IMG/VR virus record: IMGVR_UViG_3300025759_000928
Location: 1-20,210 of that record
Length of the DNA stretch: 20,210 nt
Origin: a virus
Strand: one strand, 5' to 3'
Each line of letters opens with the position of its first letter. Positions within the stretch are counted from its first letter, which is position 1. This document shows, in pieces, positions 811-19,678 of the stretch. The position numbers were made by a program, and so were the translations under genes. The notes below the pieces were generated by a model. The model made no database searches. It was not told where the DNA came from and saw only the letters and a program-made list of their open reading frames with translations.

Positions 811-1436
811 ATATGTACTTGTGTTCGTTGAATAAAATAAATTACGTCGTATATCTCCCCGTTATCACTAGGCAGCATCTTAACGCTTAAGCCGTTTGTT
901 ACTACGTCTGAATCTGAGTAATATTGAAACTGCTTCGTGTAGGTATGCTCTACGTCATTACCTTTAGGGAAAACTATAATATCTCTTACCCTTTCGTAAG
1001 GCGTGCCGTTTCCACCTTGTAAGTAAATATCGATATAGCCGTTAGCGTTGCTTATCTTAGCCTTAAATGCTATAGTAATTATATATACGTCGTTCTCGTT
1101 TTCGGCAAATAGCTTACTTCCATTATAATAAGCCGTAGAACTGTTTATGTAGGTGTTTAATACAGTGCCAGCGTTGTTAGGTACAGTAAACTCCGTAGCA
1201 GTTGTAAACGCATAAGATGAAGCACTTGTGTATTGTGTGTCGTCGTACCTTGCCCAGCCTAAACCTAAGCCCGAACTTTGAGCTGGGTATACTTTAACCA
1301 TCTCATCATTAAAACCCATGTAAAGCGCCTCGTTAGTAACTAGCATTGCACCCTGTTCTACGTTCACGCTGTTAACTTGCTCTAGGTCGCTTTCCTGTAC
1401 GTGTACTCTAAAAGAAGTGTTTTTAGTTGTCGCCAT
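807..1436 (-). CDS. Predicted virion structural protein, beta-rich
   Basis: A 209-residue protein of unrecognised family. The N-terminal third (MATTKNTSFRVHVQESDLEQ, then a stretch on a value shown or set at each position, GAMLVTNEALYMGF) resembles short collar-like or fibre-attachment segments in phage structural proteins. The remainder is rich in Tyr, Ser, Thr and Asn with alternating hydrophobic residues and looks like a beta sandwich. No signal peptide, membrane segment or catalytic motif is visible. It overlaps the upstream protease gene by 14 bases and the downstream Cys-rich gene by 4, so it belongs to the head cluster. A head fibre or decoration protein is a reasonable inference, and a receptor-binding or carbohydrate-binding jelly roll is an alternative. 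Function is unproven. Confidence 0.65.
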   Translation of the reverse strand: MATTKNTSFRVHVQESDLEQVNSVNVEQGAMLVTNEALYMGFNDEMVKVYPAQSSGLGLGWARYDDTQYTSASSYAFTTATEFTVPNNAGTVLNTYINSSTAYYNGSKLFAENENDVYIITIAFKAKISNANGYIDIYLQGGNGTPYERVRDIIVFPKGNDVEHTYTKQFQYYSDSDVVTNGLSVKMLPSDNGEIYDVIYFIQRTQVHI

Positions 1437-2001
1437 TTACTAAAGCTTTTAGTTCCTCGATTATCTCGTTTTCGCTGCTCATCTCTAAAGCTTCTAAGCC
1501 TTGGTAAATACCCTCAATAGAAAACCCTTTATAGTCGCCCGCTTTTATTTTCTCCCATTCGTTGTCGTTATATACTTTCATAGTAATAGCCCAACTTCCT
1601 ACAGGTGCTTTAAGGTTGTATAACGCTGTTTTATCCTTGTCTGTGTCCTCAACTAGCCAACTTTCAATAACACTCACCCCAGTAACTGGTCGCTCGTGTT
1701 CAGAAGTCACGTTATTAAGGTTCAACTTTTTCATAAATAGCTCCGCAGTTTTGTAGATAGTCTCTTTTGAGAAGTAAATGTTAAACTCCTTTTCTTTAAT
1801 CTTACGATAAATGCGCTTTTCAGGTACTAAAGCAAGCCCTGTTACTATACGCTTTTCGTCGTCTACTACTTTTAACTCCATCTTATAACCCGACAAGGCT
1901 ACAAAGTTTTCCTCGATAGCGGGGTTTTCTACTAACGAAACGGCAAATACTCCGTCCTCGTTTTCGTCCTTAATGAATAATTCTACTTCTTGTAATTCCA
2001 T
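1423..2001 (-). CDS. XkdF-like prohead serine protease (S78_2-type)
   Basis: A 192-residue protein predicted to cleave scaffold and capsid precursors during procapsid maturation. It has the layout of XkdF-like proteases: an N-terminal strand region with VSLVENPAI (residues 21-29), a mid region with H102 in SEHERPVTGV, then SWAITMKV and KAGDYKGFSIEG, in which S161 is the expected nucleophile. His and Ser spacing and the surrounding words match what I know of this family; I assign the third catalytic residue less surely. Usual family members are about this size or carry a C-terminal scaffold fusion; here the scaffold-like part appears to be a separate gene about 840 bases downstream. It follows the tape measure gene by 13 bases, whereas in most siphophages a portal gene precedes the protease. 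The leader contains TTTAAACGTAAATAAG before the ATG. Confidence 0.82.
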   Translation of the reverse strand: MELQEVELFIKDENEDGVFAVSLVENPAIEENFVALSGYKMELKVVDDEKRIVTGLALVPEKRIYRKIKEKEFNIYFSKETIYKTAELFMKKLNLNNVTSEHERPVTGVSVIESWLVEDTDKDKTALYNLKAPVGSWAITMKVYNDNEWEKIKAGDYKGFSIEGIYQGLEALEMSSENEIIEELKALVNGDN

Positions 2002-2014
2002 AACTTATTTACGT

Positions 2015-3892
2015 TTAAAGTGTACTTTGTTGTATTTTGTTTCTTTCGAGCGACTGAGCCGAGGTAACATCACCAGCTACTACATACGCCTGTAAAGGTT
2101 GCTGCCCTAGTGTCTGCGCTAGTTGGTTAGTGCCTGTGTTACCCACTACGTTAAAAGTCGCGGGGTTAGATAGTTCTGCGGGCGGGTTAGAAGCTCCAGC
2201 ACCTCCACCAGCACCGCCTGAGCCACCGCCTTGATATTGTTGTCTAGCAATAGTCGCCACGTTAGCAAGTCCAGCAGCAACAGCAGCAGCAGCAGCAATA
2301 AAAGGAGCAGCGGGGTTAGCAATACCTAACGGACTAGCAGCAGTCGAAGCAAAAGCAGCCGTAGCACCTTTATAAGTGTCTATAGTTGCTTGTGCTATAC
2401 TAATAGCCTTGCTTATGTTAAAAGCTCTTCTTTGCTGTTCCTCGTTTTCACCAGCGAACGCATTTACTAGGCTTCCTATTCCTTGCAAAGTTGCACCCGC
2501 TAATTCTAGCTTCGCGTTTTGTAACTCTCTTTCTCTTTGTAGTTCTGCTTCGGCTAGTTCTTTCTTTTTGTTATCGGCTTCTATTGCAGCATCTACTTTA
2601 GCTTCTTCGGCTGCTAGTTCAGCATCTAAGCTCGCTTGTATCTCTGCATCTACAGTAGATAGTCTTTCTAAGTGCTGAGCTTGAAATTCTTTCTCTAACT
2701 CCTCCTGTTGCTTTAATCTTTCCTCAAGGTCTTTTAAAAAATTATCGGCATCTCTGCGAAGTCTAGCCTCTTCCTCCATTTCGGCTATTATACGTGCTTT
2801 TCGTTTTTCAAAAGCTTCCTTTCTTATTTTCTCCTTTTCCTCCTCCGCTTCTCTCGTAGTTCTTACATCGTCTAACTTAATTTGCTCTAATAAAGTTTTA
2901 GACTCCTTTTGAGCAGCTAGCATAGCTTCATTGACCTTGTCAATTTTAGCATTAATGTCGTCAGCTTGCTCCTGTGTTAATTCTCCGCTTTGGTATAATA
3001 AGTCATACATAGCACCAAGCGCATCACCCTGTTTCTTTAGTTGTACCTGTAATTCATTGTTTGACTTTATACGCTCCATTCTATTTTTACGAACAGCCTT
3101 AAAAATATCCTCCTCAGCGTCTCCGCGAGCTTTCATCATTTCAACCTCAAACTTACGAAGCCCCTCTATCTCGTCGCGCTCTTTAGAAATAGCCTCAATA
3201 CGCTTTCCTTGTTGTTCTATGAACTCCTCGGTACGTCTTAGATTTTCTTGGTGTAAAGTTTCCGCTGCATCGTCTGTAATACCTAGCCAATTAGTAATAG
3301 CTTCAAAATTAGAAATTAAAGCAGCTATACCCGCTATAAGAGCAGTTATAGCAGTAATTATTAAGCCTATCGGGTTAGCTTTCATGGCTACGTTAAGCAC
3401 CTTTTGAGCTACAGCACTAGAACGGATAGCAACTCCTAACGCTTTAAAACTTGCTACGCTTTCTCTAATACCTTGAAAACCTTGAGCAATAGCCGAAGCA
3501 CTTTGAACGCGAAGTAAAGCCTCCTCTACCTTTTCACTCTCTACGCCCATAGCACCCATAGCACCAGCGCCAAGTTCAAAAGCAGAAGTAATACCTCCTA
3601 AAGCACCGCCTAAGTTTTGCGCTAAAGTTTGGCTCATACCGTCGACTACCATATCAGTGTCAACGATTACCTTTTTCATTTTTCCGACCTCGGCTGTAAG
3701 GTCTTTAAATTCCTGAGTTCCTTGCTCTCCAGCAATAGCCATTTCGTAGAGTCTATCCTCTAGCTCTCCTATACGACCCGACAAAGGCTGTATCTCTCCG
3801 TATACATCCTCGAAGCTGCCACCTAATTCATCTAGTGACTTGGTAGCCTGTTTAGCATCTACCTTTATTTCTATTGTTTTCTCTATTGCCAT
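2015..3892 (-). CDS. Tail tape measure protein
   Basis: A 625-residue protein with the hallmarks of a tape measure, which sets tail length and fills the tail tube until DNA ejection. The N-terminal 170 residues are helical and Ala/Gly-rich (for example NLGGALGGITSAFELGAGAM). A strongly hydrophobic segment spans about residues 174-195 (PIGLIITAITALIAGIAAL). A long, highly charged coiled coil runs from about 210 to 470 (many Glu/Lys/Arg/Gln). An Ala-rich second hydrophobic region follows (around AAAAAVAAGLANVATIA), then a Gly-rich linker (GGGSGGAGGGAGA) and a polar tail. It is short for a tape measure, which suggests a fairly short siphovirus tail. Its start overlaps the 47-residue gene at 3883-4026 by 10 bases. 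GC-rich AGC repeats near 2268-2300 merely encode the Ala run. Confidence 0.88.
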   Translation of the reverse strand: MAIEKTIEIKVDAKQATKSLDELGGSFEDVYGEIQPLSGRIGELEDRLYEMAIAGEQGTQEFKDLTAEVGKMKKVIVDTDMVVDGMSQTLAQNLGGALGGITSAFELGAGAMGAMGVESEKVEEALLRVQSASAIAQGFQGIRESVASFKALGVAIRSSAVAQKVLNVAMKANPIGLIITAITALIAGIAALISNFEAITNWLGITDDAAETLHQENLRRTEEFIEQQGKRIEAISKERDEIEGLRKFEVEMMKARGDAEEDIFKAVRKNRMERIKSNNELQVQLKKQGDALGAMYDLLYQSGELTQEQADDINAKIDKVNEAMLAAQKESKTLLEQIKLDDVRTTREAEEEKEKIRKEAFEKRKARIIAEMEEEARLRRDADNFLKDLEERLKQQEELEKEFQAQHLERLSTVDAEIQASLDAELAAEEAKVDAAIEADNKKKELAEAELQRERELQNAKLELAGATLQGIGSLVNAFAGENEEQQRRAFNISKAISIAQATIDTYKGATAAFASTAASPLGIANPAAPFIAAAAAVAAGLANVATIARQQYQGGGSGGAGGGAGASNPPAELSNPATFNVVGNTGTNQLAQTLGQQPLQAYVVAGDVTSAQSLERNKIQQSTL

Positions 3893-9333: not shown

Positions 9334-10536
9334 CTACCTTATATGATATTCTCCCCTAGTCGGGTTTTCTAGTTGATAGCTTACCGCGTACCTAAGTGCG
9401 TCGATAGCATGGTTGTATTTATCCACGGGCGTGCTGCTTTTCTTTTCTAACCAACAGTAGTTGTTTAGTTCCTTGATTAAGTCGGTACTTCCCTCATCTA
9501 TAATTAAGTCGAAGTCCTGAAGCAATGCTATCCCGTAAGTTACTGAACCTTGCCCCTTAATTGTAGGTACTATGTTATTACTTACGCTTAACTCACTTAT
9601 TAACCTTGGCTCTGCTGAATCCGCTACTATTAGACTGCTTCCCGCAAATCGTTTGTTTAGTTCTGCTATCTGTGAAGTCGTTAACGCTTGCTTATAGTAA
9701 TGTAGTTTAATGTATATTTTCTTGTTTGCCTTGTCTATGCTTGTCTCTACTAAAGTAGTCGGGTCCGCTGAGAATCCGAAGTCTTGCCCGAATACGCTCG
9801 GTGCTGCTTGCTCAAACTTGCCTATTGTCCAGTTGCTAAATATAACGCCCTCTGCTTTGTCGAGCCAACCTCCTAGTATTTGGTGCTTAAACTTCTCAGG
9901 ACGTCGTGTGCGTATGTTCTCTATTTGATTAATGTAACTCTCACTTAAGTTGTCTAAGTTGTCTAAATAGGTTGTGTGTATGTAAGTAGTGTCCCCCTTT
10001 GTGACGTTGCCCCCTTCCTGTATTCCTCTAGACTCAAAGAAGCGGTTATATATCCAATGCTCTTTTGTGCTAGGATTCATTATTAAAATCACCCTGTTCT
10101 GTATTCCTTTCGCCCTTACGCTTAAGTCTATCTTATCGAAAGTCTCCTCATCGGTTAGCTCTTCTGCTTCGTCGAGTACCCAAGTTGTTACGCCTTGCAA
10201 AGACTTGAGGTTAGCCGTTTGGTCTCCTGAGCTTGTCTTAATACCTCTGAATAATATACGGCTTCCCGACTGCTTGTTTATTATTTCGTCCTTGGTTATA
10301 TGAAATCTATCCTGCCATCCTAGTAGCTCTATTTTCTCCAAGAACTCAGGAATAATAGATATACCAGCTGAGCGCAAAGTATAACGAGTAAAAAGGATAA
10401 CATGATTAGGCTCTACGGTTAAAAGACAAAGAAGTAATCCAATAGAAAACGACTTACCCGAACCACGACCACCTGTACAAATGTAGTAGCGCGAATCATT
10501 ATCTAAGACTAAATACTTTTCGTTAATCTTTATCAC
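9334..10536 (-). CDS. terL: Terminase large subunit (Terminase_3 type)
   Basis: A 400-residue DNA packaging motor that translocates and cuts the genome at the portal. Visible motifs: Walker A GGRGSGKS at residues 22-29; an adenine or C-motif region with MNPSTKEHWIYNRFF near 153-167; Walker B WVLDEAEEL with the catalytic Glu near 119-127. The C-terminal nuclease domain begins at about 245 with acidic residues in FGQDFGFSADP (D252), LIVADSAEPRL (D306) and KYNHAIDALRYAV (D379). This is the RNase H-fold arrangement of Terminase_3 proteins, and the length is normal. It overlaps the small subunit gene by 14 bases. No portal gene follows; the next gene is the tail chaperone after a structured 112-base gap. 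The order and motifs make this one of the surest calls in the window. Confidence 0.96.
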   Translation of the reverse strand: MIKINEKYLVLDNDSRYYICTGGRGSGKSFSIGLLLCLLTVEPNHVILFTRYTLRSAGISIIPEFLEKIELLGWQDRFHITKDEIINKQSGSRILFRGIKTSSGDQTANLKSLQGVTTWVLDEAEELTDEETFDKIDLSVRAKGIQNRVILIMNPSTKEHWIYNRFFESRGIQEGGNVTKGDTTYIHTTYLDNLDNLSESYINQIENIRTRRPEKFKHQILGGWLDKAEGVIFSNWTIGKFEQAAPSVFGQDFGFSADPTTLVETSIDKANKKIYIKLHYYKQALTTSQIAELNKRFAGSSLIVADSAEPRLISELSVSNNIVPTIKGQGSVTYGIALLQDFDLIIDEGSTDLIKELNNYCWLEKKSSTPVDKYNHAIDALRYAVSYQLENPTRGEYHIR

Positions 10537-12397: not shown

Positions 12398-12649
12398 TTA
12401 AAAAGGTAAGTCGTCGCTGTGCTGTGCGGCTTGTGCTACAGTTTCCTCTTTTGGCTCGTAGGTATCTAGCTTCGCATAAGGCTTGCCACTTTTACCCATT
12501 AACACACTCAAGTTAACCCAGCCGTTTTTATTGTTAGCCTTCATAAATTTCTCAAACTCTTCGACCTTTACGCTTAAATTACATAGCACGAAGTCGGGCG
12601 CGTTCTCATTCTTTTTAACGATTAAACCGTCTGCAAAAATTGTTTCCAT
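12398..12649 (-). CDS. SSB-like single-stranded DNA-binding protein
   Basis: An 83-residue protein that ends SDDLPF, the acidic Phe-terminated tip by which SSB proteins recruit replication and repair partners. The core, about residues 8-65, has FVLCNLSVKVEEF and GWVNLSVLMGKSGKPYAKLD, consistent with a small OB-like beta barrel. It is much shorter than classical SSB (about 110-180 residues) and belongs to a phage type I recall in Bacteroidota recombination modules. Placed after the exonuclease gene with two spare bases, it fits a role in coating the 3' overhang made by the nuclease for the ERF protein. The tip is directly visible; the OB fold is inferred. The N-terminal ATG follows an A/T-rich leader. 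Confidence 0.72.
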   Translation of the reverse strand: METIFADGLIVKKNENAPDFVLCNLSVKVEEFEKFMKANNKNGWVNLSVLMGKSGKPYAKLDTYEPKEETVAQAAQHSDDLPF

Positions 12650-12651
12650 AT

Positions 12652-13359
12652 TTATTTTGTTAATTTACTAATTGAACTCTCAAGCATAGAATAATACTCT
12701 CTACACTCTTTTACTCTTTCTTTCATTTTGTTTACCGTGTTTTCGTTGTACTCTACCTCGAATATCTTTACACGTAAATTTTCAGGTATTCTATCGAACT
12801 GCATTTTATCTCTAACCTTTTGCTCTATCTCTAAGGCTTGCTCGTCTGTAGGATCAATAGCTTTTAGTTTCCACGTTTCTCTCCTTATCTCATCCTGTAT
12901 AGCGTCCTCGGTATGATTGATTAAACAATAAGCTACGTAGCCGTTTAGCTTTCCTGTTAAGTCCATGTAAGCCAAAAGCTGGTACATATAATCTTTATTA
13001 GGCAGCTCGCTATCGAACCAAGGAAACGTAGTAGCGTCCCAGCTAGTTTTTATGTCTATAATAGAATCATCAGTAATAATATCGGGCGTTCCTACAAAGT
13101 AATCGTTTTTAAAGCGTTCCTCGTTTTTCTGAACTCCGAAGTTACCTGTAACCTTTGAGAAAAATAAGATACTTTCGTCCTCTTGGTTTGTACCCCTTTC
13201 AGTGTATCGGTTAGAGAAGTCTTTTTTAATACCGAACTCGTTATATAAAAATTGCTCTTCTACAGCAGTCTTAGCCGTCTTACTTAAAAACTCCGACTTT
13301 GTGCGAGGGTTAGCCATTATTTTGCCAACCCCCGAAGCATGACAATAGTACTGTTTCAT
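12652..13359 (-). CDS. YqaJ/lambda-exo-like PD-(D/E)XK exonuclease
   Basis: A 235-residue nuclease, predicted to resect double-stranded DNA ends for single-strand annealing. The core motifs are visible: VGTPDIITDDSIIDIKTS (residues 89-106) gives Asp93 and the D102-x-K104 pair of the PD-(D/E)XK fold. YMYQLLAYMDLTG (124-136) supplies the Q-x-x-x-Y helix common to YqaJ and exo-type enzymes. An acidic RGTNQEDESI segment (55-64) matches the upstream Glu motif. Length agrees with phage exonucleases of this class. It overlaps the 62-residue gene by 4 bases and stands two genes after the ERF protein, giving the usual nuclease plus annealase pair. A Cas4-like identity is unlikely as no cysteine cluster is present. 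Confidence 0.85.
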   Translation of the reverse strand: MKQYYCHASGVGKIMANPRTKSEFLSKTAKTAVEEQFLYNEFGIKKDFSNRYTERGTNQEDESILFFSKVTGNFGVQKNEERFKNDYFVGTPDIITDDSIIDIKTSWDATTFPWFDSELPNKDYMYQLLAYMDLTGKLNGYVAYCLINHTEDAIQDEIRRETWKLKAIDPTDEQALEIEQKVRDKMQFDRIPENLRVKIFEVEYNENTVNKMKERVKECREYYSMLESSISKLTK

Positions 13360-13544
13360 ATTTCCGTTTTTAGTTTATATAGTTTAGTTAAATCCTCATC
13401 GCTCAGCTTCTCGAATATATCAGCTAAATGGCTTCTAAATCGTGCTGGCTCGTGTGTGTACTTTCCTGTTAACTCTAAGCCTCTTTTCCTGTAGTCTGCA
13501 GTTTCTAACAAAGTGAGCTTATTAATAGTATTTTCTCTGCTCAT
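13356..13544 (-). CDS. Small hypothetical protein in recombination operon
   Basis: A 62-residue helical, charged protein that I do not recognise. It reads MSRENTINKLTLLETADYRK, then a segment with ARFRSHLADIFEKLSDEDLT and a short basic end. No cysteine pair, transmembrane segment or catalytic motif is visible. ATGA overlaps at both ends couple it to the ERF gene before it and the exonuclease gene after it, so it is almost certainly co-translated. It could be an adaptor or regulator of the recombinase pair, which is a guess from location alone. Confidence 0.6.
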   Translation of the reverse strand: MSRENTINKLTLLETADYRKRGLELTGKYTHEPARFRSHLADIFEKLSDEDLTKLYKLKTEI

Positions 13545-14065
13545 TGTTGTAAGCTTTTAGTTTGTTCTTTAGTTAACTCAAACTTCTCTATAAGTTCCTC
13601 CTTTGTGTAAGTTCCCTCAGCAATAGCTTTAACCGCCTTGTTGAACTGAGCAGAAGTTAAACTAGCTTTCTTAACTACTTTCTTTTCCTGTTCGCCCGCT
13701 GCGTCATTATCTACGTCTGTCACAAGTCCAAGCGCAGAACTTATAGCGTAGCGACGAAAATAAGAACAACCAGCACCAAAAGACTGAAAGTCGTTCATGC
13801 CTTTTAATTGTACGTAAGGCATAGCAACCTCGCTAGATACTTTCTCTCCGCTGTCAATATGAAAGATAATAGTTTCAATGTAGTTAACGCCTTCTTTAGT
13901 TCCTAAGTGCTGCATGAAGCCTAAGCCGTGCTTTTTTAGTAAAGGGTTAATCTTTTCGAAGATAGTAGGGAGGTCAGCGTATGAATAGCCGTAGCCTTTT
14001 GTTCCCTTGTGAATCGTTGGTACTTCTTGCTGGAAATCAGCAATTGCTTTAAATAAATTTTTCAT
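13541..14065 (-). CDS. erf: ERF-family single-strand annealing protein
   Basis: A 174-residue recombinase that anneals complementary single strands, working with the nearby exonuclease and SSB-like protein. ERF family words are clear: GYGYSYADLPTIFEKINPLL (residues 24-43), HGLGFMQ (46-52), and GMNDFQSFGAGCSYFRRYAI (89-108) with SSALGLVTDVDNDA after it. The last 45 residues are Lys/Glu-rich and may be a C-terminal tail for partner binding. Length is near the low end of the family but normal for phage ERF. A good promoter (14089-14118) lies just upstream, so this gene probably heads its own transcript. The leader carries AAACAATTAAAC before the ATG. The next gene overlaps by 4 bases. Confidence 0.92.
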   Translation of the reverse strand: MKNLFKAIADFQQEVPTIHKGTKGYGYSYADLPTIFEKINPLLKKHGLGFMQHLGTKEGVNYIETIIFHIDSGEKVSSEVAMPYVQLKGMNDFQSFGAGCSYFRRYAISSALGLVTDVDNDAAGEQEKKVVKKASLTSAQFNKAVKAIAEGTYTKEELIEKFELTKEQTKSLQQ

Positions 14066-14088
14066 GTTTAAAAGTTTAATTGTTTATG

Positions 14089-14118
14089 CAAATATAGTTA
14101 TTTATAATTGTTACGCAA
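14089..14118 (-). promoter_or_regulatory. Bacteroidota-type promoter before the ERF gene
   Basis: On the minus strand a TTG (14118-14116) is followed by a 19-bp spacer and TATATTTG (14096-14089), an excellent fit to the TTG/TTTG-N19-21-TAnnTTTG promoters of Bacteroidota. The predicted start would be near 14085, giving about a 20-base leader to the ATG at 14065. It overlaps the last codons of the ninG gene. It would give recombination genes a transcript of their own. Confidence 0.8.
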
Positions 14119-14631
14119 GTTTTTTAATAGTTTTTTGTATTTTTTTGTTATTTCCTTGATTTCGTCGATAGTCATCTTTAATGGCTCTAGGTCTTTACGC
14201 TCTAACCTGTTAACTCGCTCCTCTCCTATTCTGTTTATTAATTCAATACGATAGTTTATTAAGTTACCTGAGTAGAAAGTGTTACAGCGTTCGCATTGCT
14301 TATGTACGTTGTCTTCGTTAAAGCGAAGCTCAGGAGTACTTCCTACGCTCATGTAGTGACCAGCGTTCATTTTGCCGTTGTACGTTCCGCATGAAATACA
14401 GCTTCTATCTTTATCCCTTTCACGTATGTAAGCATTAAAGGCAGCTTGTGCTAGTTTCAAGTAGTCTGAGCGGGTAAGTAACTTTTCTTTGAGTTCCTTC
14501 TTTCTGTCCTTCCATTGCTTCTCCTTTTGTAGTTTCGTGTATTCGTATCCGCACTTGGTAGAACAAACAACTTGAAGCGGGCGTAATGGCTCAAACTTCT
14601 CTTTACATACTTTGCACTTTTTAGCTCTCAT
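14098..14631 (-). CDS. ninG: NinG/Rap-like recombination endonuclease
   Basis: A 177-residue protein of the lambda NinG (Rap) family, which cuts branched DNA during recombination. Motifs: an N-terminal zinc finger, C6-x-x-C9 (CKVC) and C23-x3-C27 (CSTKC); the basic RKELKEKLLTRSDYLK (residues 43-58); FNAYIRERDKD (65-75); then C78-x-x-C81 (CISCG), NAGHYMSVG (89-97) and LRFNEDNVH with H110, C113 and C116. These last motifs form the HNH-like catalytic and zinc region. The length is close to lambda NinG. It lies between the T5orf172 nuclease and the ERF gene. Unusually for this window, an AAGGAG precedes the ATG. Its last codons contain the -33 box of the ERF promoter. Confidence 0.92.
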   Translation of the reverse strand: MRAKKCKVCKEKFEPLRPLQVVCSTKCGYEYTKLQKEKQWKDRKKELKEKLLTRSDYLKLAQAAFNAYIRERDKDRSCISCGTYNGKMNAGHYMSVGSTPELRFNEDNVHKQCERCNTFYSGNLINYRIELINRIGEERVNRLERKDLEPLKMTIDEIKEITKKYKKLLKNLRNNYK

Positions 14632-15308: not shown

Positions 15309-16291
15309 GGCGTTTTAATTGTGTTCCATATCTCATGCGGGTCTTCATCTAACCCGTTTTCAATATCGAAGTTAATGTTTTTAAATTTGTTTAAGTCCTC
15401 CCGCGGCTCGTTAGGTACTATCTTCTTCTGAAAAGCTTGAGGGCGTTTAATTACATCTACCCCGTTAACCGTTAACCCTAGACCAAAGTTATAGTCTAAC
15501 ATAATAGGCTGGTCTTGAAACGTCGGCTTACCTCCAGTATCCGTGTCTTTTATCTTTGCTACTTCAATCATAGTAAACTTCCATAGCTCAGCGTGCGAAG
15601 TTAGGCGGTGTATAACTACGAAGTCATCAGCTTTATTTGCGAACGCTTTACCGCCTTCAATATCCGACTTAAAAGGTATTCGTACTTGTCCTTGCCATTG
15701 GTGGTCTTTAGGATAAACAGCTCCTAACCTTCCGCTTGCGCTCGTAGGATGTGCGTTAATAAATACCGAGTGCTTGCCCTCTTTAGTTACCATCTTTAGC
15801 TCGTTCAATACGTCGTAGTTACTAGAATAAGTTAAATCTGTCTTAAGTGAGTTCCAAGGGTCTATTAGTAGCGTATCTCTTCCTGAATTTAAGTATAAGT
15901 CTATTACCTCCCGCGGCTCGTATCGTTTCGTGTTGTCAATAAAACTAAAGTGGTTTTCTAACTTTATTTCTGCTCGTCGTATTTCTTTGTGGCTTAAGTC
16001 CATAAAAGACTTATTGCAGTACATCTGTACAAGGTCGCGCATTATCTTACCCGCGCTGTTTTCGTCGCAGAATAAACAAAAGCTTAAATCGTGATTAGTC
16101 GCTAGTGCTAGAAAGTACCAAAGTTGAAAATATGTCTTACCTACGTTGTCGTGTCCGAGAAATATGTTTAACTGGTTGTGCTTGTAGACAAAGTTCTCAT
16201 CTAAAGCGCAGCCTAGTTTTAAGCCTTTAGGTATCTTACCGTCTCGGTAGTCCGTTAAAAACTTTGTGCTGTGTCCGTTGTTTAGTATCAT
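15305..16291 (-). CDS. RecA-fold replicative helicase (DnaB/RepA-like)
   Basis: A 328-residue hexameric-type ATPase, likely the phage replicative helicase. Walker A is GHDNVGKT at residues 46-53 (in NIFLGHDNVGKTYFQLWY). Walker B is LLIDPWNSL at 141-149. HSVFINAHPTSASGR (174-188) is the sensor or switch strand, and FVVIHR follows around 230. This is the RecA/KaiC-like core found in DnaB, RepA and related helicases. No N-terminal DnaB bundle or primase domain is present, so a separate primase may be elsewhere, or the host one is used. The gene overlaps the DUF6291-like replication gene by 4 bases, mirroring the lambda O/P-type pairing of initiator and helicase or loader. Precise subfamily remains open. 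Confidence 0.82.
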   Translation of the reverse strand: MILNNGHSTKFLTDYRDGKIPKGLKLGCALDENFVYKHNQLNIFLGHDNVGKTYFQLWYFLALATNHDLSFCLFCDENSAGKIMRDLVQMYCNKSFMDLSHKEIRRAEIKLENHFSFIDNTKRYEPREVIDLYLNSGRDTLLIDPWNSLKTDLTYSSNYDVLNELKMVTKEGKHSVFINAHPTSASGRLGAVYPKDHQWQGQVRIPFKSDIEGGKAFANKADDFVVIHRLTSHAELWKFTMIEVAKIKDTDTGGKPTFQDQPIMLDYNFGLGLTVNGVDVIKRPQAFQKKIVPNEPREDLNKFKNINFDIENGLDEDPHEIWNTIKTP

Positions 16292-16869
16292 TTATTTGTA
16301 GCTTTTTTAACGTGTTCTACTAACGGATCTACTCTTGCACGTCCGTTCTCTCCGTGTTCTTTCTTAAGCCAGTTCTTAGCCGTCAAATATAAGGAAACAT
16401 ATTTACTGTTGCCTTTGTAGTTTTGTATCGCATCTAAAACCGTATCTATTTGCTCTTTCGTGTAGTTCTCGTTTAGCTTGATGCATTCTGCTTTTGTTAT
16501 TTTCAAATGTTTAAAAGACATATATATATCTTTATTATCATTTACATTTACATTTACATTTACATTATCAGTTGACGCTCGTAAACGCTCGTTAACGGTC
16601 GTTGCATTTCGTTGACGTTTCTCAGCGCTTTTACGCCCCGCTTCTCTGCGTTGCTCTAGTTGTGTTTCCCACTTCTGTAAATCCCTCTTCAATTGTCGTT
16701 TAATACTAATAAAAGCAAGTTCAACAAGTTGGTTATCTGCTGTAGGATTTTCATCGTTAACGTAAGAAAATATATGTTTAATTAATTTACCCGCTACTTC
16801 GTCAGGTAGAAAACTAAATAGGTCTTGCTGGTCTGCGTAAAGCACGAAGCTCTTTTTATCTTTTGCCAT
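16288..16869 (-). CDS. Replication initiator-like protein (DUF6291-type N-terminus)
   Basis: A 193-residue protein in two parts. The N-terminal 85 residues (KSFVLYADQQDLFSFLPDEV, then LIKHIFSYVNDENP and KRQLKRDLQKWETQLEQRRE) match, as I remember it, a phage replication domain annotated DUF6291. Residues 84-100 are a linker whose DNA is a 10-bp tandem repeat array, and residues 102-111 are the dipeptide repeat NVNVNVNVND. The C-terminal part (about 118-190) is a small helical domain with LKKEHGENGR and a basic end. The gene stands directly before the RecA-fold helicase (4-base overlap). Together with the embedded array this suggests an initiator that binds its own gene, as lambda O does. Initiator function is inferred. 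The ATG follows AATTTAAACT, with a 3-base gap from the MazG-like gene. Confidence 0.75.
   Translation of the reverse strand: MAKDKKSFVLYADQQDLFSFLPDEVAGKLIKHIFSYVNDENPTADNQLVELAFISIKRQLKRDLQKWETQLEQRREAGRKSAEKRQRNATTVNERLRASTDNVNVNVNVNDNKDIYMSFKHLKITKAECIKLNENYTKEQIDTVLDAIQNYKGNSKYVSLYLTAKNWLKKEHGENGRARVDPLVEHVKKATNK
16541..16564. repeat. Hexamer repeat TTTACA x4 (AT-rich block)
   Basis: Four perfect copies of TTTACA on the plus strand, followed by TT; on the coding strand they encode alternating Asn and Val. Since each unit is 6 bases, copy number can change without breaking the gene. The block may act as the unwinding part of the putative origin or merely as a flexible linker. Confidence 0.85.
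16571..16620. repeat. Five tandem 10-bp iteron-like units
   Basis: Plus-strand units are GTTGACGCTC, GTAAACGCTC, GTTAACGGTC, GTTGCATTTC and GTTGACGTTT, with consensus GTTRACGCTC. All five start with GT, and the fourth is the most divergent. The period of 10 is close to one DNA turn, so a bound protein would face the same side each time. A period of 10 cannot reflect a protein repeat, since it changes codon phase from unit to unit. Confidence 0.82.
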
Positions 16870-18155: not shown

Positions 18156-19526
18156 TTAGATAAATTTTGGTGTTTCTATTTGTTTATTAAATTCTTTTGT
18201 TTTGTGCGTAAAGTCCGCGTTTACATTTTCTACTAGATTTTGATATAGCTGTATTGCTTTTTCGGTCTTTTGCTGTAGTGCTTCCATTACTCTAGTCTGA
18301 CCGTCTGAAATAACCATATCAATAGTTACGTCGCGTTGTTGCCCAAATCTCCAAAACCTTCGAATAGCTTGGTAGTATTGTTCGTAGCTCCATGTAGGAA
18401 AGAATACAGAGTGATTGCAGTGCTGCCAGTTTAAACCCATACCAGTCATCTTAGCCTTGGTTATTAGTCGAGTTATTTCTCCATTTGCAAAGGCTACTAA
18501 AATCTCTTCTTTACGGTCAACTGACATACTGCCTAATATTTCTACAGCTTCACTATCTAAAGACTTTATTAGTCCGCTTTCCTCGTTTCTATTAACCCAA
18601 TAAACAGAAGTCTTACCTTTTGCTAGTTGAATAGCCTTTTCGCATCTTTCTTTTATTGTGCTTTTCTCTTCGTGCTTTATTTCATTAAAGTTCTTTGCGA
18701 CTGGTGTAAACATTTGTATCTGACCGTCAACATCTATTAACGAATTGTTTTTAACGACGTGTTTATTTACTATGAGTTCAGGAAGTATATACCTCGTGTC
18801 ATCAAAACCTAAGTCCGACGGCTTTTTAACCATTATAGACCATTGGTTTACCCATGCAAAAAAGTCCTTTTCTGCGTGTGGTTTAAGATAGTATTTTTCA
18901 CCTATGTTACGGGCGTTACTGTCTGAGGTGTTATTGTTGTTTTTAAAAAACTTACCTAGCATATCCATATAACCCATATAACCGAGTGCCTCGCTACTTG
19001 TGCCTAGTTCTATAAAATCGTTAGGGCTTGGGGTTGCTGTAGATAAATAACGGTATTTTACTTTTTTAATAAAGCTAGTAATTTGATTTTTAATTTTACC
19101 GTCAAAGTTCTTTAAAATACTACTTTCATCTAGTATAACCCCCTCAAAGTCTTTAGGGTTTAAATATTGCAACCTTTCGTAATTACATACTACTATTTTC
19201 TTTGTGTGCTTTCCGTTTTTTGTTTGCTCGATGTCGTCGGTAATATTCCTATCCATAGCTTCTTTTACAAACTGAAAACCAACCGCTAAAGGCGTTAATA
19301 TTAATACCTTTCCATTAGTTTCGTTTACGATGTTCACAGCTATAGATAACTGTATTAAAGTTTTACCTAGTCCAGTATCAGCAAATACTGCCATTCTACC
19401 TTTTCTAACCGCTTTCTCTATTATTGCTTTTTGAAAATCAAAAGCACAATCAGGAAAGTAATTAGGCTCAAAACCAAACTCTCCTATAAGGTGTTTTTTT
19501 TGGTTTAAAAATTGTTCATAGTTCAT
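18156..19526 (-). CDS. SNF2/DEAD-like superfamily 2 helicase
   Basis: A 456-residue SF2 ATPase. Motif I is FADTGLGKT (residues 48-56), motif Ia lies around LILTPLAV (75-82), motif II is ILDESS (131-136, DES in place of DEAH), motif III is STATPSPND (162-170), and motif VI is QAIRRFWRFGQ (386-396). The SNF2-type final motif with Arg fingers is plain, and the second RecA domain also has MTGMGLNWQHCNH. Between the lobes, GYMDMLGKFFKNNN and WSIMVKKPSDLGFDD are words I know from phage helicases paired with methyltransferases. The methyltransferase gene follows after one base, as if they form a pair. The start is 21 bases after a terminator-like hairpin, so expression may be controlled by readthrough. 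Direct substrates are unknown. Confidence 0.9.
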   Translation of the reverse strand: MNYEQFLNQKKHLIGEFGFEPNYFPDCAFDFQKAIIEKAVRKGRMAVFADTGLGKTLIQLSIAVNIVNETNGKVLILTPLAVGFQFVKEAMDRNITDDIEQTKNGKHTKKIVVCNYERLQYLNPKDFEGVILDESSILKNFDGKIKNQITSFIKKVKYRYLSTATPSPNDFIELGTSSEALGYMGYMDMLGKFFKNNNNTSDSNARNIGEKYYLKPHAEKDFFAWVNQWSIMVKKPSDLGFDDTRYILPELIVNKHVVKNNSLIDVDGQIQMFTPVAKNFNEIKHEEKSTIKERCEKAIQLAKGKTSVYWVNRNEESGLIKSLDSEAVEILGSMSVDRKEEILVAFANGEITRLITKAKMTGMGLNWQHCNHSVFFPTWSYEQYYQAIRRFWRFGQQRDVTIDMVISDGQTRVMEALQQKTEKAIQLYQNLVENVNADFTHKTKEFNKQIETPKFI

Positions 19527-19546: not shown

Positions 19547-19603
19547 AAAAAAAAACCTCCGTAAATCCTTGAGGCTCTCACTTCTCAATTCATTACAGAG
19601 GTT
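19547..19603 (-). terminator. Terminator hairpin with a nested hairpin
   Basis: AACCTCTGTAA (19603-19593) and TTACGGAGGTT (19564-19554) pair over 11 positions with one G-U, and nine T (19555-19547) run out of the stem. Inside is a second hairpin TTGAG/CTCAA (19588-19584 with 19573-19569). It would end a short RNA started at 19642 or attenuate transcription into the helicase gene, whose ATG is 21 bases on. Confidence 0.82.
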
Positions 19604-19642
19604 AATAAAATGTCTGTGTTGCTTATTGTGAGAGCGCAACGT
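19547..19642 (-). ncRNA. Candidate structured RNA with complementary loops
   Basis: The predicted RNA of about 95 bases starts near 19642 (from the promoter) and ends in a U-tract. Hairpin 1 is GUUGC (19640-19636) with GCAAC (19622-19618) around a 13-base loop starting GCUCUCAC. Hairpin 2 is the terminator, with a nested hairpin whose 10-base loop ends GUGAGAGC. These 8 bases are perfectly complementary to those of loop 1, giving a potential intramolecular kissing contact. No reading frame is present. It is either a free small RNA or a leader controlling the helicase operon. I recognise no known RNA family. Confidence 0.65.
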
Positions 19643-19645
19643 GTA

Positions 19646-19678
19646 CAAATATAACTATTTTTCTTTTTCCCTTACAAA
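19646..19678 (-). promoter_or_regulatory. Bacteroidota-type promoter of the structured RNA
   Basis: TTTG (19678-19675), a 21-bp spacer and TATATTTG (19653-19646) on the minus strand fit the promoter form of this phylum. The -33 box overlaps the final codons of the 75-residue gene. The expected start at about 19642 is two bases before the first stem of hairpin 1, a neat agreement between promoter and RNA structure. Confidence 0.78.

Follow-up and report, generated by a model that had tools for sequence, protein, structure and literature searches.

A kissing-loop RNA upstream of DNA-replication genes in phages of flavobacteria

Just ahead of their DNA-replication genes, hundreds of viruses that infect flavobacteria and related bacteria have a compact RNA in which the loop of a first hairpin kisses a second loop that is nested inside a predicted intrinsic terminator. 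The fold and the loop-loop kissing are well established by covariation. The RNA is a new family of a known general kind, phage leader RNA with conditional termination. Judging from sequence, the RNA probably decides whether the replication genes are read. The copy described here lies near one end of the window, by which we mean the whole stretch of DNA that was analysed (20,210 nucleotides, IMG/VR record IMGVR_UViG_3300025759_000928), and its parts are listed in Table 1 together with copies found in isolated phages.

Table 1. Parts of the RNA and neighbouring genes in the window, and copies of the RNA in isolated phages
Feature	Record	Positions	Strand	Basis
Promoter box TATATTTG (Bacteroidota -7 type, TAnnTTTG)	Window	19653-19646	minus	Sequence
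Hairpin 1	Window	19640-19618	minus	Sequence and fold prediction; stem covaries
Stem 1, GTTGC / GCAAC, 5 bp	Window	19640-19636 / 19622-19618	minus	Covariation
Octamer X, GCTCTCAC (RNA: GCUCUCAC), in hairpin 1 loop	Window	19635-19628	minus	Pairing with X'; covariation
AATAA (RNA: AAUAA), rest of hairpin 1 loop after X	Window	19627-19623	minus	Sequence
Linker from hairpin 1 to terminator hairpin, AAAGRAATTATT-like in relatives	Window	19617-19604	minus	Sequence and parsed relatives
Terminator hairpin, whole	Window	19603-19554	minus	Sequence and fold prediction; outer and nested stems covary
Outer terminator stem, AACCTCTGTAA / TTACGGAGGTT	Window	19603-19593 / 19564-19554	minus	Sequence, covariation
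Internal loop, TGAA / GGAT	Window	19592-19589 / 19568-19565	minus	Sequence
Nested stem, TTGAG / CTCAA	Window	19588-19584 / 19573-19569	minus	Sequence, covariation
Octamer X', GTGAGAGC (RNA: GUGAGAGC), in nested loop, AA directly before	Window	19581-19574	minus	Pairing with X; covariation
T run of predicted intrinsic terminator, first two T paired	Window	19555-19547	minus	Sequence; T-rich tail in most homologues
DEAD/SNF2-type helicase, first gene after leader, ATG ~20 nt past T run	Window	18156-19526	minus	
DUF6291 protein, replisome-organizer-like, same operon	Window	16288-16869	minus	Matches primosomal and replisome-organizer PHROGs
RNA copy	Gundel_1	33904-34002		Covariance model match
RNA copy	hattifnatt9-1	9371-9464		Covariance model match
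RNA copy	snusmum6-2	9721-9814		Covariance model match

Fold and covariation of the kissing loops

Read on the minus strand, positions 19640-19547 specify a ~95-nt RNA composed of hairpin 1 followed by a terminator hairpin that encloses a nested hairpin. Energy minimisation predicts this nested arrangement (-24.8 kcal/mol; z = -2.94), and an equally good fold was found in 1 of 200 shuffles. Octamer X comes straight after the 5' strand of stem 1, X' comes straight before the 3' strand of the nested stem, and the two read exactly as the original prediction had them, complementary over exactly 8 bases and each lying against a stem strand. The promoter box and the terminator hairpin that it had pointed out are likewise present in the sequence, the TATATTTG box ending 5 nt before stem 1. 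From these signals, transcription is predicted to start at stem 1 and to make use of the terminator.

The first homologues came from regions upstream of helicase relatives in viral contigs and from a match in Tenacibaculum phage Gundel_1, and their octamers are altered yet still complementary. Two pattern scans of viral contigs that placed no requirement on octamer pairing (the second with the last two bases of X fixed in the pattern) gave at least ~190 further loci. The covariance model R1 was built from 11 seeds (alignment A3) with stem 1, the outer stem and the nested stem only, the X:X' pairing being omitted, and it matches at least 154 distinct sequences, two of which are false. Among the 154 distinct matches listed, X pairs with X' at 8/8 in strict register in 139 and at 7/8 in 7 more, while the other true matches reach 7/8 or 8/8 once shifted by one or two bases; when X of one RNA is set against X' of another, 8/8 is found in ~5%, so that the loop layout is indeed beyond chance, as had been claimed. 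Perfectly self-complementary octamers of ~37 distinct kinds occur among the matches listed.

The alignments tell the same story. X:X' cells are paired at 99.8% in A6 (67 distinct rows) and 98.8% in A5 (82 distinct rows), with changes on both sides at six and seven, respectively, of the eight pairs, and sliding the X:X' partners of A5 by 1-3 columns makes the paired cells fall to 29.5-40.8%. Stem 1, the outer stem and the nested stem all show compensatory changes, and the covariation of X:X' is as strong as that of the stems. The compensating changes in both loops that the original prediction proposed to look for are thus found, in octamers that vary yet stay complementary, and the strict register of the covariation is what is expected for the intramolecular kissing complex that it had put forward. 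A set of 152 RNAs was also parsed, with a parser that demands octamer complementarity, which is why the kissing test rests on the R1 matches, A5 and A6 instead. In a mutual-information ranking of column pairs, used solely to look for other helices, stem 1, the nested stem, X:X' and the outer stem come out on top, and no competing helix appears among these parsed rows, which are selected for octamer complementarity.

The geometry of the parsed RNAs (n = 152) is near-constant, X following stem 1 with 0 nt between them and preceding a linker, and X' following the nested stem after a spacer and meeting its last strand with 0 nt between them. X is 8 nt long in 130 of the 152, the linker after X is 6 nt in 119 (mostly AWUAUA) and the spacer before X' is 2 nt in 129 (mostly AA). 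Within the main class there is hardly any variation in the internal loop UGAA/GGAU, the AC end of X and the GU end of X'. In 142 of the 152, stem 1 is preceded by a TAnnTTTG box at a distance of 2-11 nt (mostly 4-6 nt). The bare X:X' duplex has an energy of ~-9 to -14 kcal/mol. By common rules for an A-form groove crossing, 2 nt and 6 nt would be approximately the shortest spacers that let both stems persist while the loops kiss, and the spacers here would lie near the minimum for kissing with the stems intact.

Carriers and genomic position

The RNA is phage-specific and near-absent from bacterial genomes. When 84,980 bacterial and archaeal genomes were scanned with a pattern, 53 matches came up, and the fold is present in a single one of them, L323 from a Vicingaceae genome; a search of 46 genomes from its order and another of 395 from its class found no member beyond that genome. 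A prophage origin was rejected on these counts. As for L323 itself (G049 contig 9, 24130-24225), the Vicingaceae assembly may hold a contig from an infecting phage. Carriers usually have one copy per phage record, as counted with the covariance models R1 or R2, and the two copies of two-copy contigs (L462 and L463; L464 and L465; L227) carry differing octamers, which fits insulated cis elements. Among the isolated carriers, the hattifnatt and snusmum phages are part of a virulent Baltic isolate set (PMC7077304). The host of hattifnatt9-1 is Flavobacterium sp. LMO9 and that of Gundel_1 is Tenacibaculum sp. AHE14PA.

Comparison with Rfam 15, including C4 and IsrK, gave for the window region only hits far below the gathering score and for ten homologue loci no match at E<=0.5, in line with the claim that this structured RNA is undescribed; no description of it was found in the open-licence literature searched.

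The gene after the RNA is co-oriented with it, its ATG lying mostly 15-28 nt past the stem, and longer apparent gaps mostly reflect small genes below the ORF cut-off. A DUF6291 gene follows directly in 89 of 152 contexts and lies within ~3.4 kb downstream in 15 more, and the other first genes encode a helicase, a primase, ParB, an HNH protein or an antirepressor, the last in Gundel_1. With first genes so varied, the RNA tracks the head of the replication operon and not one gene family. In the window a helicase gene does follow, but the helicase-methyltransferase genes named in the original prediction are only one of many kinds of downstream neighbour, and the link to them is incidental. Further along the same run of minus-strand genes (12398-14631), the window has genes for an exonuclease, ERF and NinG, which belong to recombination and replication. 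In hattifnatt9-1, the annotated start of the helicase gene (L466; MN812207.1 9441-10847) overlaps the terminator hairpin, and the likely ATG (MTDYEKF) comes after the hairpin.

The gene upstream of the RNA runs in its direction in 124 of 152 contexts, so that transcription entering from there could also feed the operon. A different layout is seen at L294, where the seven genes upstream of the RNA are divergent (the nearest shares phrog_24921 with window positions 1423-2001) and the ATG of the replisome organizer lies at most ~10 nt past the U-tract. This leaves no other visible position for a promoter and implies, for this one metagenomic contig, that the operon is read through the terminator. 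Its relative L244 has the same gene order with two small genes inserted.

Proposed transcription attenuation and its alternatives

The reading that we favour, with confidence standing about midway, is that a phage replication operon has this RNA as its 5' leader, which would act as a kissing-loop transcription attenuator. It is preferred because promoter, terminator and co-oriented replication genes follow each other in order and because of the L294 layout, which together suggest that transcription of the replication operon is gated. Among the functions that had been offered at the outset, attenuation is the one best supported by operon-head position and L294; a decoy for a host defence is unsupported, as octamers vary from one phage lineage to another. 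A mimic of a CRISPR repeat was also considered, GCUCUCAC being presumably present in a Cas13b CRISPR repeat, and was dropped since the octamer varies freely between phages.

The attenuator would work as follows. A transcript would begin at stem 1 from its dedicated TAnnTTTG promoter, and hairpin 1 would be the first to fold, leaving X exposed until the nested loop emerges, whereupon X' would pair with X over 8 bp to give a compact pseudoknotted fold containing the intrinsic terminator. Many transcripts would stop at the U-tract as the ~95-nt RNA and the remainder would continue into the replication genes, the level of read-through, and hence the timing or level of replication, being set by formation of the kissing fold, or by binding to it. 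The likeliest signals would be (i) accumulated ~95-nt RNA that pairs in trans with nascent leaders, the terminated RNA being then a possible trans regulator, or (ii) a protein that recognises the shape. How kissing would affect termination is not obvious, since it can apparently coexist with the terminator stem, and we infer this effect and its direction, as we do the signal and the use of promoter and terminator.

No covarying antiterminator stem that would exclude the terminator was found among the parsed rows, where the strongest covarying pairs all fall within the four helices, and pairing of the linker, as antiterminator, with the outer strand does not stand out, since 14 of 200 cross pairings do as well. 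A two-state switch within the leader is thus not supported, covarying antiterminator pairing being absent, and the lack of a covarying alternative stem favours control of the terminator by tertiary or trans pairing over such a classical switch.

A promoter box lying at the first stem, together with a terminator, would equally suit a stand-alone small RNA of the phage, acting in trans on a host or phage RNA or protein, in which kissing is a stabilising feature and the place at the operon head a matter of compact genome packing. Read-through would be unneeded wherever the upstream genes are co-oriented (124/152), and IsrK of Gifsy-1, where a single promoter yields both a terminated sRNA and a read-through mRNA, is a precedent for dual products (PMC4825925). 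We nevertheless regard it as unlikely, because the octamers vary by lineage, which speaks against a conserved target for octamer pairing, because the RNA is fixed at the operon head despite different first genes and because L294 requires read-through. Extra copies of the octamers, as candidate trans targets in their own contigs, numbered 7 and 9 versus 4.1 and 6.6 expected, with no clear excess.

The terminated RNA might also regulate its own kind in trans, as the CI RNA of P4 and c4 of P1/P7 do, an earlier copy kissing a nascent leader and altering its termination, which would provide copy-number feedback or interference between phages that share an octamer, the octamers serving as specificity groups. 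Such a role would be in keeping with octamers that are diverse yet complementary within each RNA, with the difference between two leaders of one genome and with the P4 CI RNA, a small RNA that derives from a replication-operon leader and also governs replication genes through RNA pairing that controls premature termination (PMC4825925). It is distinctly unlikely in our view, however, since pairing within the RNA should outcompete pairing in trans, and since carriers of the Baltic set are virulent (PMC7077304) and bacterial genomes are nearly without the RNA. These last two facts also indicate that prophage immunity is not its main use.

Other kissing leaders and known systems

Further support for the attenuator comes from other phages, where the same position is taken by permuted or non-homologous kissing leaders. 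In snork9-1 and hattifnatt9-1, the leader ahead of DUF6291 has the roles swapped, with AA-GUGAGACG in hairpin 1 and CGUCUCAC-ACUAC in the terminator hairpin; the elemoA leader is similar, with 7 bp, CGGGCAGG pairs with CCUGCCCG in the 11b leader, the phi13:2 and phi19:3 leaders have a 9-bp complementarity and further loci have symmetric 6- or 7-nt kissing loops. A kissing score of at least 9 is reached in 56 of the 74 DUF6291 upstream regions that have a terminator-like hairpin (regions that are related to varying degree and are not independent events, with ~29 different pairing sequences); the rate is 1.9% once the upstream sequence is shuffled and 8.8% when hairpins from other loci are used. 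Terminator-like hairpins from elsewhere in the contigs reach this score in 2.7% of cases, and several of those that do are genuine kissing leaders.

Leaders that kiss through a different architecture also occur outside DUF6291 regions (L510 ~3080-3520; L232 ~8360, minus; L314 ~3080; L610, first 440 bases), and some of them have an internal loop, GAGUA/GAAA, that resembles the bulged-G (loop E) motif. Two different leaders were seen upstream of DUF6291: in L571 and L572, CGCGTATCCGT ... ACGGATACGCC closes the whole RNA from the start point and no kissing was found, and in L489 and L492 a stem AAAGGGG ... CCCCTT stands right at the start point of the promoter, with an inner hairpin GTAAA...TTTAC.

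We tentatively suggest, at somewhat less than even confidence, that these RNAs form an undescribed leader superfamily in Bacteroidota phages, in which kissing with the terminator loop would be a general gate of the replication operon, and sometimes of other operons, and in which the diversifying octamer may insulate leaders or set self-recognition groups. Its loop architectures, in a grouping that we hold just as provisionally, would be the asymmetric 8-bp one, the same with loops exchanged, and the symmetric 6- and 7-nt ones.

This variety bears on two further explanations. One is a sensor for a protein or small ligand, whose fixed shape and unpaired AWUAUA, UGAA/GGAU and AA would offer a binding site to RNA polymerase or to a factor of phage or host origin, and this binding would control termination; the unpaired bases are strongly conserved, loop lengths are kept while the octamer sequence is free, and similar shapes precede different operons. 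We find it very unlikely, since the loops and internal loops of the other leaders at this position differ, so that no binding site is common to all, and no candidate factor was found. The other is that kissing merely protects the RNA or helps a constitutive terminator to fold, without any regulation, which would agree with a kissing that is compatible with the terminator stem and with a 5' end closed in stem 1. It is highly improbable, because it leaves unexplained both a promoter followed directly by a terminator ahead of replication genes and the differing kissing architectures at the same place.

Among known systems, the nearest functional relatives are P4 CI RNA and IsrK/c4, from which the RNA is set apart by the lack of an Rfam match and by layout. 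It shares with P4 CI RNA a place in the leader of the replication operon. However, the P4 RNA, a product of processing of a longer transcript, pairs with the flanking seqA/seqC and gives prophage immunity, whereas here both partners are inside one ~95-nt RNA, one of them in the loop nested in the terminator hairpin, and carriers are rarely seen among bacterial genomes; pairing with two flanking leader sequences is not seen, each octamer having one partner within the RNA. With the antisense RNA C4 (P1/P7) and with IsrK it shares a phage location, the Gundel_1 copy preceding an antirepressor gene, but it has no Rfam match and its fold and target layout are different.

Loop-loop kissing of 6-8 bp near replication control is familiar from ColE1 RNA I/RNA II and other plasmid antisense systems. 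The octamer diversity seen here resembles their compatibility groups, but theirs are two RNAs from opposite strands and here both partners are in one sense transcript. Attenuators of the pT181/pIP501 type have a terminator in the leader of a replication-initiator gene and employ an antisense RNA and alternative stems, whereas no covarying antiterminator stem was found in the leader here. HK022 put RNA, a structured leader of a phage early operon that acts on termination, is not known to have an internal terminator or kissing loops. The exchanged loops and the free octamer make this RNA an unusual variant of its kind.

The isolated laboratory carriers (hattifnatt9-1, snusmum6-2 and Gundel_1) make its function testable now, and the ~37 distinct, geometry-matched kissing octamers among the matches listed are a natural set for work on RNA structure. 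If the proposed function is true, this would be a new and widespread means by which an RNA times the replication of viral DNA, in a phylum where gene regulation of phages has received little study.
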